Source of the DNA: a virus
DNA length: 20,532 nt
Reading direction: 5' to 3' (one strand)
Virus record (IMG/VR): IMGVR_UViG_3300025828_000255
Span: 1 to 20,532 of that record
Shown here: one piece after another, positions 945 to 13,349 of the stretch
Layout of the letters: every line of letters starts with the position of its first letter
How positions within the stretch are numbered: the stretch's first letter is position 1
Position numbers and translations under genes: made by a program
Notes under the pieces: generated by a model
The model's database searches: none
Seen by the model: the letters and a program-made list of their open reading frames with translations, nothing else
Told to the model about the DNA's origin: nothing

Positions 945-1028
945 TTCTCCACAGGTTTTCCACAAGTTATCCACAGAAATCCCAGAGTTATCCACAGGAA
1001 TCCTTGAGTTATCCACAAGTTATCCACA
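945..1028 (+). other. DnaA-box array, candidate replication origin
   Basis: Four perfect copies of the strong bacterial DnaA box TTATCCACA start at 967, 988, 1009 and 1020, all in the same direction. Two one-mismatch copies precede them, TTCTCCACA at 945 and TTTTCCACA at 956. The starts are 11, 11, 21, 21 and 11 bp apart, so every box falls near a multiple of one helical turn and would lie on the same face of the DNA. Two weaker words ending AGCCACA (1159-1167, 1169-1177) continue the theme. AT-rich DNA follows at 1178-1260, as expected for an unwinding element. Host DnaA could open this site and load or attract the phage primase-helicase. It might also act as a DnaA-titrating or transcription-control site. 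Confidence 0.65.
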
Positions 1029-1220
1029 GGCCACCGTGTTGGCACGGGTATTGCATAAGATTCCACAAGGATTGAGTGTGAGTATGCCAGAGGATACCTA
1101 CAGCACTGTATGAATACACAGGTTGACACAAGCATACCCTTATGCTAGGTACACAAGGATAGCCACAAGTAGCCACAAATAAATTGCTATAGATGTAGGT
1201 AGATAAAAAAGATTGTAGAT

Positions 1221-1256
1221 TGTCGCAACCAGATATATCTATGTCGCAAATAGATA
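1221..1256 (+). repeat. Two iteron-like direct repeats around a palindrome
   Basis: TGTCGCAAnnAGATA occurs at 1221-1235 and 1242-1256, exactly 21 bp apart, the same pitch as the DnaA boxes. The perfect palindrome AGATATATCT (1231-1240) spans the end of the first copy. Repeats of this kind next to DnaA boxes recall iteron origins of plasmids and some phages. A phage initiator that could bind them has not been identified. They could instead be a regulator's operators. Confidence 0.45.
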
Positions 1257-1269
1257 AGCATCAGTCTCT

Positions 1270-1637
1270 CAAGGGTCTATCATGGGGACCATCAAGACGA
1301 CACAGAAACAGCGTGTCTGAGAATGGTAGAGGTATAAGCGGGATCAATATCTAGTGTTAGTAAAGTCCGCGGGCTTTGATTAATTTAACACCGAGCTTAT
1401 ATCGCAGTCTTGACCTGAGTGTTACCACTAGCAGATAACGGTAACAGCCCCTAGATGCCGCGGCATGCAAGGTTGTGAAAGTGGAGTGAATCAGGATAGA
1501 GTAACCAAGATTGTTCGCAGGTTACACGGAGCCAGAAGGCGGGCTGAAAGGTCGCAGTGTGGTTAAAACAGCTCCAGAGAACAATCAACGGTTATTCACC
1601 GGAGATGCTAGGTAACTGGCGTTTGCGTTGAATAACT
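1270..1637 (+). ncRNA. Candidate structured RNA or structured 5' leader
   Basis: No open frame of note, but many complementary segments. GACAC/GTGTC pair at 1299-1303 and 1313-1317. A nested three-part arm has GGTATAAGC/GCTTATATC (1331-1339, 1395-1403) enclosing GTGTTA/TAACAC (1354-1359, 1386-1391), which encloses AAAGTC/GGCTTT (1362-1367, 1372-1377). TGTTACC/GGTAACA pair at 1420-1426 and 1440-1446. A 12-nt palindrome lies at 1455-1466. GTAACC/GGTTAC (1501-1506, 1520-1525) has a loop whose GATTGTTC (1509-1516) matches GAACAATC (1579-1586) perfectly, giving a pseudoknot that encloses GGAGC/GCTCC (1528-1532, 1571-1575). GGTTATTCA/TGAATAACT (1590-1598, 1629-1637) ends just before the ribosome-binding site of the gene at 1652. 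It could be a separate RNA, a leader controlling early genes, or secondary structure of an origin. The pairings were found by eye; no family is recognised. Confidence 0.4.
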
Positions 1638-1651
1638 AAAGGTAACTAAAC

Positions 1652-2104
1652 ATGGCTAAGAAAACTCGTAGGTCATACGCTGAGTTAGATAACATACTAG
1701 GGCGGCATTACGCTGACAATAATTTCTGTGCCTTGGTCGCTATTTGTATAGCTACTGATGCAAGCGTAGGTAAGGTTAAAAGATACGTAGAGAAGTTTGC
1801 TAAAACTTGGGAAGGTCGTAAGCGAGTACATCGCAGAGGCACACCGTTTGAGGTAATCAAAGCTAGCTTGAATCGCTTTGGTAAAGAACATGACCCAGAC
1901 TGGAATAAGTACAGCCACTGTGGGTATACACTTAACAGAGTCCACAAGGAACTTGCACTAACGCACCCAAACGATACGTTTCACGTGTACGTAAGGGGTC
2001 ACGTGTCCTGTATCCGCGAAGGTATACTTGAAGATTGGACTGCAAAGAAGCCTAGCAGACGCAAGGTGTCGCACGTTTTCAGGGTAATTGATAGGACTAG
2101 TTAA
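1652..2104 (+). CDS. Early protein with possible papain-like (cysteine peptidase) fold
   Basis: A 150-residue basic protein and the first early gene. It begins after AAAGG at a good distance (1638-1642), immediately downstream of the terminal hairpin of the structured leader. The layout resembles small phage papain/C39-like proteins: a Cys at a helix start in DNNFCALVAI (C26), a glycine/threonine turn (GTP, residues 63-65), GYTLNRV, and a C-terminal block FHVYVRGHVSCIREGILEDW with H117 and D128. C26, H117 and D128 could form the Cys-His-Asp triad. The C-terminal strand-turn-strand pattern (H.....REG...DW) is the part I recognise best. Substrate and activity are unknown; it might be an inactive fold. 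As the first early gene, a role in acting on host proteins is conceivable, but that is inference. Confidence 0.5.
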   Translation: MAKKTRRSYAELDNILGRHYADNNFCALVAICIATDASVGKVKRYVEKFAKTWEGRKRVHRRGTPFEVIKASLNRFGKEHDPDWNKYSHCGYTLNRVHKELALTHPNDTFHVYVRGHVSCIREGILEDWTAKKPSRRKVSHVFRVIDRTS

Positions 2105-2172
2105 TTTGTTTTATCGTGTCTATTGGTATACAGTAGGCATTATTAAACCAACTAAACCAAAAGGTAATAACG

Positions 2173-2403
2173 ATGAAACTTAAGCAATTAGGAAGTAACA
2201 TGACCGAGCTAGACTTGGGCGAGGTACAGGTATTTTTTAGCTACGAGACACCAGTAGCCGCACGAACTGATACGGGTGCATTGGTGCGTACATCAACCAA
2301 GTACAGCGTAACCACCACCAAGCACATCAATAAGTGGTTGCAGGGTTGTGATGCAGTGGAAGTACCGCAGTCAGTAATTAACACTTTAGTGGAGGTAGTA
2401 TAA
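2173..2403 (+). CDS. Conserved small phage protein of unknown function
   Basis: 76 residues, start ATG after AAAGG. The sequence has the pattern LGSNMTEL, then VFFSYETPVAA, then YSVTTTKHINKWL. This is typical of a small protein family found in many podo- and siphoviruses of aquatic bacteria (possibly the family called DUF8033; the number is from memory). The predicted content is mostly beta-strand followed by a short helix. Its function is unknown. Its TAA overlaps the next ATG by one base (TAATG), so the pair is probably translationally coupled. Confidence 0.7.
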   Translation: MKLKQLGSNMTELDLGEVQVFFSYETPVAARTDTGALVRTSTKYSVTTTKHINKWLQGCDAVEVPQSVINTLVEVV

Positions 2404-2594
2404 TGAGCGAATCAGCAATTACACTGGGCAAAATACAAGTAGAGTTTGAGTGTTTATATGGCACTAAAGAAATGTTAAAACGACTAACTCAAAAAGATCG
2501 CACAAGTGAGTTATTGCGGATATGCAACCGCGAAAACATATCATTTAAAGGTTTTGAGTATTTAGAGCGCAAACTAATTTTGGTAGGAGTATAG
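2403..2594 (+). CDS. Small hypothetical early protein
   Basis: 63 residues, starting in the TAATG overlap with the preceding gene and preceded by GGAGG within that gene's last codons. Mixed charge, with a run LKRLTQKDRTSELLRICNRE that would be helical. No motif is recognised. Support comes from its position in a tightly packed gene series, its ribosome-binding site and codon use like its neighbours. Confidence 0.6.
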   Translation: MSESAITLGKIQVEFECLYGTKEMLKRLTQKDRTSELLRICNRENISFKGFEYLERKLILVGV

Positions 2595-2598
2595 TATT

Positions 2599-2757
2599 AT
2601 GGATTTAAAAACAGCAGAGACTCAACTAGCGTTAATAACTCCGCAGATCATTAAGCTAGAAATTCAGGGAAAAACAGCCTACACTGACGCTAAATGCTCT
2701 GATTTGTGGAAAGAAGCGCGGGAGTTAACCAAGATAATAAAACTACTTAAACTCTAA
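2599..2757 (+). CDS. Small hypothetical early protein (52 aa)
   Basis: A short gene of 52 codons reading MDLKTAETQLALITPQ, then a lysine/leucine-rich helix ending KIIKLLKL. It starts nine bases after TAGGAG and fills the gap between two other early genes. The sequence looks largely helical and possibly coiled-coil. No family is recognised. The packing, ribosome-binding site and fit to the gap make it a likely real gene. Confidence 0.6.
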   Translation: MDLKTAETQLALITPQIIKLEIQGKTAYTDAKCSDLWKEARELTKIIKLLKL

Positions 2758-2771
2758 TAGGAGCATAAACA

Positions 2772-2957
2772 ATGAGCAGGTCAATATTAATTGAGGTCAA
2801 GCAGAGCTATGGTCGGAAGGTTATCTATCCGGCCTGTAACAACGCTGAGACATTCGCGAGGCTGTCAGGGTGTAAGACCTTGACCGAACAAACGCTTGAG
2901 TTGATAGAGCAGTTAGGCTACACTATCGACACAATAACACCAGATTGGAGGGCTTAA
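2772..2957 (+). CDS. Conserved small phage protein of unknown function
   Basis: 61 residues starting after TAGGAG. The pattern ILIEVKQSYGRKVIYPACNN, then FARLSGCKTLTEQTLELI, then LGYTID resembles a short protein found next to small early genes in many T7-like and other phages. There it usually reads LIEV...YG...YP......FA.L.G.KTL....L..I..LG. The N-terminal half is beta-stranded and the C-terminal half helical. No biochemical role is known to me. Confidence 0.65.
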   Translation: MSRSILIEVKQSYGRKVIYPACNNAETFARLSGCKTLTEQTLELIEQLGYTIDTITPDWRA

Positions 2958-2960
2958 CTA

Positions 2961-3128
2961 ATGAATAGCGCAAGACGTAAGCAGCTAGTGGCTGAACAAA
3001 AGCGAGAGTATCGTATAAAGTTCTTTACAGATGTGTTTGGATGGTGTACCATCGCATCATTAACTTATTTAATATGGCTTGGGTTTTTCTTTATGTTAGC
3101 TAATCCCTTGTCCACTTTGTTTAACTAG
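2961..3128 (+). CDS. Small single-pass membrane protein
   Basis: 55 residues. The N-terminal half is strongly basic and helical (ARRKQLVAEQKREYRIKFF). It is followed by one hydrophobic segment of about 20 residues (roughly residues 27-47, from GWCTIASLTY to FFMLA) and a short polar tail. The charge pattern predicts N-terminus inside, C-terminus in the periplasm. It starts ten bases after GGAGG and three bases after the previous stop. An early small membrane protein could alter the host envelope, exclude other phages or act in lysis; one transmembrane segment and an early position do not point clearly to a holin. Confidence 0.6.
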   Translation: MNSARRKQLVAEQKREYRIKFFTDVFGWCTIASLTYLIWLGFFFMLANPLSTLFN

Positions 3129-4350: not shown

Positions 4351-4549
4351 ATGTAAAAGTTGCGATGTTATATTAAACGAATACGAACTAAAAAAGATTG
4401 ACCATTTAACAGGACTACATCTTGACCTATGTAACGTCTGTGCCGCCCACTCTAATGAAGCATTAATGGAAAGTAGCGACACGCTTAATTATCTTTACAC
4501 GGGTTTAGTTTCGGAGACTGAGGATATTGACTCGTTGAGGGTGGAGTAA
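4343..4549 (+). CDS. Small zinc-ribbon-like early protein
   Basis: 68 residues. The ATG at 4343 lies in an overlap with the previous stop and gives MSRCKSCDVILNEYELKK, a CxxC pair at residues 4 and 7, followed by LCNVCAAH with a second CxxC near residues 30 and 33. Four cysteines in two pairs suggest a small zinc ribbon. The C-terminus is acidic. Its last 55 bases overlap, on the other strand, the end of the endonuclease VII-like gene. It is the last gene of the early series. Target and role are unknown. Confidence 0.6.
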   Translation: MSRCKSCDVILNEYELKKIDHLTGLHLDLCNVCAAHSNEALMESSDTLNYLYTGLVSETEDIDSLRVE

Positions 4550-4977
4550 TCGCCTTTATCTTCAAGATAATAGACAGCCTTCTTAAGTAACTGGGGGCTG
4601 TCTTTAAAAAGACCTAGAGCAGTGTTACAATGATGACACAACAAACCTCTGACTTCTCCTGTGTCGTGGTTATGGTCAACAAACAGAGAGGTAGGAGAGG
4701 TAGCAGGAGATTCACAGATAAGGCAAGCGTTGTTCTGTTCTGCCATCATCTGATTGTAGTCATCTGTTGTTATGTTATACTTACGCTTGAGATCCCTCTC
4801 TCTTTTAATAAGAGGACAGGCTTTTGTATTTAACCCTTTAGCGTGACGTTCTCTTTGATAAGTGTTAGTGCAGGGTTTACATCTTGGCTTGGGAATTGAA
4901 GCCTTACGAGTAGGACAGTGATAGTGCGTAAACTCAGTAAGAGGTTTAGATATGTTACATTTAATACAGGTTTTCAT
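4495..4977 (-). CDS. Endonuclease VII-like HNH nuclease (recombination endonuclease VII family)
   Basis: 160 residues. The N-terminal third has two CxxC pairs (C4/C7, C33/C36), a zinc finger. The C-terminal part is the T4 gp49-type core: YNITTDDYNQMMAEQNNACL with C85/C88, then FVDHNHDTGEVRGLLCHHCN with the DHNHD active-site cluster (101-105) and C114/C117, then the helix LLKKAVYYLE. The family resolves Holliday junctions and branched DNA; many copies behave as freestanding mobile nucleases. It starts eight bases after GGAG. It lies opposite to the surrounding plus-strand genes, has its own promoter at 5138-5166 and overlaps the preceding gene tail to tail, which fits insertion as a unit. Confidence 0.9.
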   Translation of the reverse strand: MKTCIKCNISKPLTEFTHYHCPTRKASIPKPRCKPCTNTYQRERHAKGLNTKACPLIKRERDLKRKYNITTDDYNQMMAEQNNACLICESPATSPTSLFVDHNHDTGEVRGLLCHHCNTALGLFKDSPQLLKKAVYYLEDKGDYSTLNESISSVSETKPV

Positions 4978-13326: not shown

Positions 13327-13349
13327 GGGGGCGTAATGCCCCCTTTTTT
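13327..13349 (+). terminator. Intrinsic terminator of the plus-strand genes
   Basis: GGGGGC (13327-13332), loop GTAAT, GCCCCC (13338-13343), then six T. It stands 20 bases after the reductase stop. On the minus strand no U-tract follows the stem, so it is one-directional. The T-run touches the stop codon (13348-13350) of the convergent virion gene. Confidence 0.92.

Follow-up and report, generated by a model that had tools for sequence, protein, structure and literature searches.

The question raised by this locus is what a phage encodes in about 370 nt that lie just upstream of its early genes. The original prediction was that of a novel structured RNA with a pseudoknot, acting perhaps as an early-gene leader or tied to the adjacent origin as a primer or copy-control RNA, and covariance analysis, comparison of folding energy with shuffled controls and an Rfam scan had been proposed as checks. 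The window, i.e., the whole stretch of DNA analysed (20,532 nt), is a virus contig, a 20.5-kb record, with a T7-like replication gene set. Its closest cultured relatives, as judged by the primase, are pelagiphages and roseophages with about 50% identity or less, and the phage group is for this reason considered to be uncultured. The main landmarks outside the locus are the following:

110-511, leftward gene
5366, gene for an ssDNA-binding-like protein
5731, gene for the primase-helicase
7359, gene for the family A DNA polymerase
10558, gene for endonuclease I
11382, gene for the ribonucleotide reductase, with class II (B12-type) domain matches

The early operon runs rightward and begins after 1270. 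An endonuclease VII-like gene (4495-4977, minus strand) lies within it on the opposite strand, perhaps as a mobile insertion. Just past the reductase, where the early operon converges with the leftward structural genes, there is a strong intrinsic terminator (13327-13343).

Between the overlapping ORFs that end at 1176 and the gene at 1652, no ORF of at least 50 aa was found on either strand, which rules out a hidden gene of that size and agrees with the earlier claim that the stretch holds no plausible one; tRNA and tmRNA genes are also absent from the window. The plus strand of 1270-1640 folds at -114.8 kcal/mol (z -2.77, 0 of 100 shuffles as good) and the minus strand gives a z of -0.74, the mean folding z over the upstream regions of 37 homologous genes being -3.5. 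Homologues were gathered by means of protein searches and DNA patterns, with 51 distinct matching cores (L029 holds a 5' remnant only), and three alignments were built from sequence alone, the structures being named and their pairs then counted. Standard pairs fill 94.8-97.4% of the cells, and double-sided changes have occurred in 69 of 129 pairs: 17 of 51 in the window-type 5' domain (8 sequences, 97.4% of cells paired), 33 of 44 in the type I 5' domain (23 sequences, 97.0%), and 19 of 34 in the 3' domain (29 sequences, 94.8%). None of 500 shuffles matched the paired percentage or the covariation score of any of the three alignments. This control leaves relatedness in; sliding the partners by 1-3 columns also keeps relatedness, yet falls far short, with pairing dropping to 26-47%. 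Chance folding is ruled out by the shuffle z-scores, the homologue z-scores, and the covariation counts. Comparative evidence thus indicates that the plus strand from about 1290 to 1637 encodes a real, conserved structured RNA of about 350 nt.

A covariance model built from type I only, and without the kissing loop described below, gave full-length matches before the diverged genes of L144, L146, L151, L125, L168, L162, L171, L178, and L189, and matched the core of the window-type RNA (1335-1399, E 0.0012), with no match in 24 control records (RNA-less relatives, isolates, and chance-hit contigs). The model has no match in the AT-rich group (L153/L163/L175), in L157/L160/L165, in L185 and L195, which are the most diverged, nor in L131 and L140. 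In the AT-rich phages (L153, L163, L166, L167, and L175; 27-28% GC) the gene leader, again without a model match, has long internal complementarity by eye, with folding z of -3.6 to -5.0 in L153, L163, and L175, and may be either a diverged or a convergent RNA. A long structured region with a CCAAGG/CCTTGG loop pair, also by eye and likewise unmatched, precedes the gene in L157, L160, L161, and L165.

Concerning the identity of this RNA, the window has no match in Rfam 15 at E <= 5, and its homologues have none save two opposite-strand chance hits in L125. The Rfam families without a match include the riboswitches, GOLLD, ROOL, HEARO, RNase P, and tmRNA, among others. Absence from Rfam and covariation together bear out the proposal of a novel structured RNA. 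No description of this leader RNA was found in the literature searched, and the fold and its partner gene, undescribed as far as these searches reach, would define a new RNA family with a function that we infer below.

The RNA is expected to start near 1289. Most homologues carry a near-consensus, host-type sigma-70 promoter (TTGACA-16-TATAAT-like), missed in the original prediction, that ends 28-30 nt before the conserved anchor of the type I RNA; because of this fixed distance, the RNA would begin at the 5' end of the transcript, as judged from predicted start sites. The span formerly given as 1270-1637 is therefore correct at its 3' end but not at its 5' end, since the RNA begins near 1289 and 1270-1288 is promoter. 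The elements on this side are:

1220-1248, direct repeat TGTCGCAA, the copies 20 bases apart, around AGATATATCT
1278-1283, plus strand, -10 box of the early promoter (TATCAT), where most homologues have TATAAT or TATACT

In the window and several relatives the -10 box is kept and the TTGACA -35 box is absent, the TGTCGCAA repeats standing in its place and probably serving as a site from which an activator or repressor acts on the early promoter. Further upstream, four perfect DnaA boxes (TTATCCACA) occupy 967-1028 on the plus strand, with 0.18 expected in the whole window, and mark a probable host-DnaA-dependent origin. This region also aligns in relatives without the RNA.

The RNA is made of two domains, a 5' domain locked by a kissing loop and a 3' domain locked by a pseudoknot. 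The 5' domain of the window, all on the plus strand and with pair counts on 8 relatives, comprises:

1293-1412, plus strand, arm 1
1293-1298/1407-1412, plus strand, closing helix of arm 1
1299-1303/1313-1317, plus strand, small hairpin of arm 1, absent as a unit in 3 relatives and covarying in the others
1331-1339/1395-1403, 1354-1359/1386-1391, and 1362-1367/1372-1377, plus strand, nested arm of arm 1
1425-1484, plus strand, arm 2, with helices 1425-1429/1480-1484 and 1444-1449/1471-1476 and hairpin 1455-1458/1463-1466
1368-1371 (CGCG, loop of arm 1) with 1459-1462 (loop of arm 2), plus strand, kissing loop

The three-level nested arm that had been predicted at 1331-1403 is present, its 21 pairs being kept in 8 of 8 same-type relatives (100% of cells paired) with 9 of them changed on both sides. 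On the other hand, the closing helix of arm 1 and the two helices of arm 2 had been overlooked. Arm 2 shows compensatory changes among the 8 relatives (CC/GG to UG/CA, etc.), and in the equivalent helices (6 and 7) of the other 5' type every pair covaries. The kissing loop, likewise a new element, is paired at all 4 positions in 100% of cells of the window-type alignment (8 relatives). In fact, the two loops complement each other exactly in each of the about 42 distinct RNAs in which both can be read, through five versions: CCAAGG/CCTTGG, CCACGG/CCGTGG, CCTAGG/CCTAGG, CCGCGG/CCGCGG, and CCATGG/CCATGG.

The 3' domain leads directly into the translation signals of the following gene:

1501-1506/1520-1525, plus strand, hairpin whose loop contains the pseudoknot strand 1509-1516; 98.9% of cells paired in 29 homologues
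1509-1516 with 1579-1586, plus strand, pseudoknot of 8 bp
1528-1575, plus strand, type-specific subdomain (variant C) enclosed by the pseudoknot, with stem 1528-1532/1571-1575
1590-1637, plus strand, terminal hairpin, directly before the Shine-Dalgarno sequence
1638-1642, plus strand, Shine-Dalgarno sequence (AAAGG/AAGG), in most homologues 12-14 nt upstream of the start codon
1652-2104, plus strand, gene for a papain-like cysteine-peptidase-like protein of about 150 aa (PHROG 3754, function unknown)

The pseudoknot had been predicted with these coordinates and is exact in the window; among the 29 homologues, 7 of its 8 pairs show both-side changes and 86.2% of cells are paired. Its sequence has changed repeatedly, from GATTGTTC/GAACAATC in the window to GATTAAA/TTTAATC in L187, GTTTATC/GATAAAC in L138, and CTAATC/GATTAG in L121, and the L015/L019/L071 subgroup has a weak version of 3-4 bp. 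These figures come from alignment counting, used because a regular expression for the exact strands missed G-U pairs and bulges. The enclosed subdomain is of variant C in the window, L006, L120, L121, and L123, with variants A, B, and D in other relatives, and its stem covaries by eye (GGAGC/GCTCC, GGGGC/GCCCC, GGAATC/GATTCC, and AGAGGC/GCCTCT). The terminal hairpin (97.1% of cells paired and both-side changes in 11 of 20 pairs in the 29 homologues) reaches to within one or two bases of the Shine-Dalgarno sequence; a distance of one base from the ribosome-binding site had been noted originally. No intrinsic terminator was found at the end of the RNA. Neither was a conserved helix masking the Shine-Dalgarno sequence, whose mean unpaired probability is 0.46 vs 0.39 overall under a nested-structure model that leaves pseudoknots out; anti-Shine-Dalgarno pairing, inspected by eye, is not general.

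Both domains occur in more than one version, two sequence types for the 5' domain and at least four (A-D) for the 3' subdomain, of which the labels B and C are reliable, and A and D, drawn from loose patterns, are not. Types B and C are each confined to one gene clade: all 7 cases of type C, some being near-identical, accompany window-like genes, and all 10 of type B accompany the genes of another clade. The 5' type of the window (W) occurs with several gene clades and is combined with C, B, and other 3' types, from which it follows that recombination within the RNA is frequent, RNA and gene still staying together. Physical linkage might by itself account for the association of 3' types with gene clades.

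The link between RNA and gene has been approached from both sides. The same gene lies downstream in all of the about 50 distinct RNAs, including those found by the 5' domain alone, and a scan of 2.9 million viral contigs with 5'-domain patterns gave no RNA without the gene, the remaining pattern hits fitting neither profile and being regarded as chance. Starting from the gene, a profile recognized the RNA in about 57 of 80 loci, and nearly all of the uncut others have a long stretch of non-coding DNA upstream; within the same phage clade, a gene-only search also led to the RNA or to a long structured stretch upstream. Among the loci fetched by primase and covering the region, 12 have RNA and gene and about 20 have neither, and one is never found alone except where a contig end cuts. 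In the approximately 20 RNA-less relatives, the sequence on the origin side and the position of the promoter are retained, and a different first gene follows a short leader (about 35 nt in those clearly readable). L029 matches the window at 96% identity as far as 1310, with the promoter retained; beyond this point, both RNA and gene are missing. This distribution indicates that RNA and gene are gained and lost together, and the RNA is almost certainly both real and tied to the peptidase-like gene. In bacterial and archaeal genomes neither gene nor RNA was found (the single 5'-domain pattern hit, L239, is attributed to chance), and no cultured phage with the RNA was found by megablast of 1000-3000 or blastn of 1000-2200; the relatives of the gene in isolate phages are distant and have no such leader.

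The product of the gene at 1652 has no Pfam match at 0.001 and no Pfam nuclease match, and no match to the PADLOC defence-system models. C26, H117, and D128 are invariant in the 19 members of the protein family, and the AlphaFold2 model (pLDDT 86.5) has structural matches with papain-fold proteins (Josephin, C39 peptidases, and staphopain) with Z up to 8.9, although no Foldseek match falls below an E of 0.001. The protein is therefore a predicted papain-like peptidase, its activity being deduced from these features. Distant relatives in Pseudomonas phages are annotated as "putative peptidase"; those of this PHROG 3754 early protein are found in Pseudomonas, Limnohabitans, and Curvibacter phages, and a host-takeover or counter-defence enzyme is possible.

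Regarding function, the most likely reading, held with moderate confidence, is that of a structured cis-acting 5' leader controlling the papain-like peptidase gene. It is favored by the position of the RNA and by its strict association with a single gene, alongside which it is lost; promoter and Shine-Dalgarno placement, together with the covariation, support the early-gene leader originally envisaged. It would also explain why the rest of the operon manages without the RNA. The RNA would be transcribed first from the early promoter, fold co-transcriptionally, and act in cis on the directly following gene, setting the amount or the timing of the peptidase. Control might be exerted through ribosome loading or the survival of the mRNA 5' end in response to a bound factor; as no expression platform was found, an effect triggered by a protein or host factor is what we infer. 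The 3' subdomain, whose type tracks the gene clade, would be the likelier site for a gene-specific signal, e.g., the peptidase itself, and the exchangeable 5' domain the likelier one for a common factor, probably from the host. Against a cis-acting leader stand the lack of conserved Shine-Dalgarno masking and of an intrinsic terminator at the RNA end, and the fact that usual autoregulatory sites are smaller than this RNA of about 350 nt. Moreover, unrelated phages (DC31, P26059A, and KIL1) carry distant homologues of the gene in the interior of operons, with no leader of this kind, so that in other lineages the gene can function in the absence of the RNA.

The main rival, put forward tentatively, is a two-part module in which a processed RNA would bind the peptidase-like protein as scaffold, guide, or inhibitor, in the manner of an RNA antitoxin or an omega-RNA; the two would then be neighbors because they are required jointly. 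Strict co-inheritance in the clade, a size far beyond the needs of a simple regulatory site, the tracking of the gene clade by the 3' subdomain, and the missing expression platform all fit this proposal, but the distant homologues that do without the RNA do not, and neither do the lack of a terminator or known processing site between RNA and mRNA, the absence of tandem repeats of the type III antitoxin kind, and the defence-system models without a match. A phage two-component system, with a structured RNA of about 350 nt as the scaffold, guide, or inhibitor partner of a small papain-like enzyme, is doubtful; to our knowledge, no RNA-partnered peptidases of such kind have been described. An independent trans-acting early ncRNA (e.g., a host-factor decoy), cut from the leader and with the gene hitch-hiking, is unlikely: the discrete, promoter-proximal, and highly structured nature of the RNA would fit, as would the exchange of its 5' domain types between gene clades, but by the 5'-domain patterns it never occurs without the gene in the viral contigs scanned, and in relatives it has disappeared together with the gene. 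Less likely still is a cis-acting antitermination RNA for the early operon similar to the putRNA of HK022. A long early transcript would start with this RNA, and putRNA likewise is a promoter-proximal nascent RNA (PMC9378689); however, an early operon of the same kind lacks it in about 20 close relatives, the operon holds no convincing plus-strand intrinsic terminator apart from the strong one at its end, and size and fold are unlike the two-hairpin putRNA of about 73 nt. Finally, a primer or copy-control RNA of the adjacent origin is largely refuted, for despite a DnaA-box array 260 bases upstream, the RNA tracks the gene and not the origin, transcription is directed away from the DnaA boxes, and the gene-less relatives, which also argue against general antitermination, conserve origin and promoter and have no RNA.

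Leaders of this general kind are already known. Riboswitches and protein-binding mRNA leaders are also structured 5' UTRs at a promoter that end at the ribosome-binding site, with conserved unpaired bases, kissing loops, and pseudoknots, and the conserved, covarying aptamer-like fold of riboswitches is present here; in contrast, the phage leader has no Rfam match, no terminator or Shine-Dalgarno masking was found in it, and it precedes one gene family only and in phages only. The putRNA of HK022, a phage early-leader RNA that adjoins its promoter, has two stem-loops in about 73 nt and serves a whole operon with terminators (PMC9378689), whereas the present RNA has two domains in about 350 nt and is lost along with one gene. 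The omega-RNA of IscB (HEARO) and type III antitoxin RNAs (ToxI-like) are structured RNAs directly upstream of one co-inherited protein gene, as is this one, but the leader differs from them: its partner is a papain-like protein of about 150 aa instead of a RuvC/HNH RNA-guided nuclease or a ToxN-type endoribonuclease, PADLOC gives no match, and the RNA has no tandem repeats within it and no similarity to theirs. GOLLD and ROOL are large ornate RNAs with kissing loops from phage and metagenome DNA (PMC12286853); the leader is smaller, shows no sequence or model match to them, and leads a protein gene.

This RNA is of interest as a large, covariation-supported family that Rfam 15 does not contain and that comes from uncultured marine phages of a common group. 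A tertiary contact (the kissing loop) and a pseudoknot can be read in it directly from compensatory changes, and one specific protein gene is its partner. It is a ready target for structure determination, and it raises the question of why an early phage peptidase needs a 350-nt RNA. Its evolutionary pattern is also unusual, RNA domains being swapped between phages while RNA and gene remain together. As a minor observation, three of the RNA-less relatives (L078, L079, and L031) carry another small hairpin leader, of the GCAAGGG...CCCTTGT type, before their different first gene.
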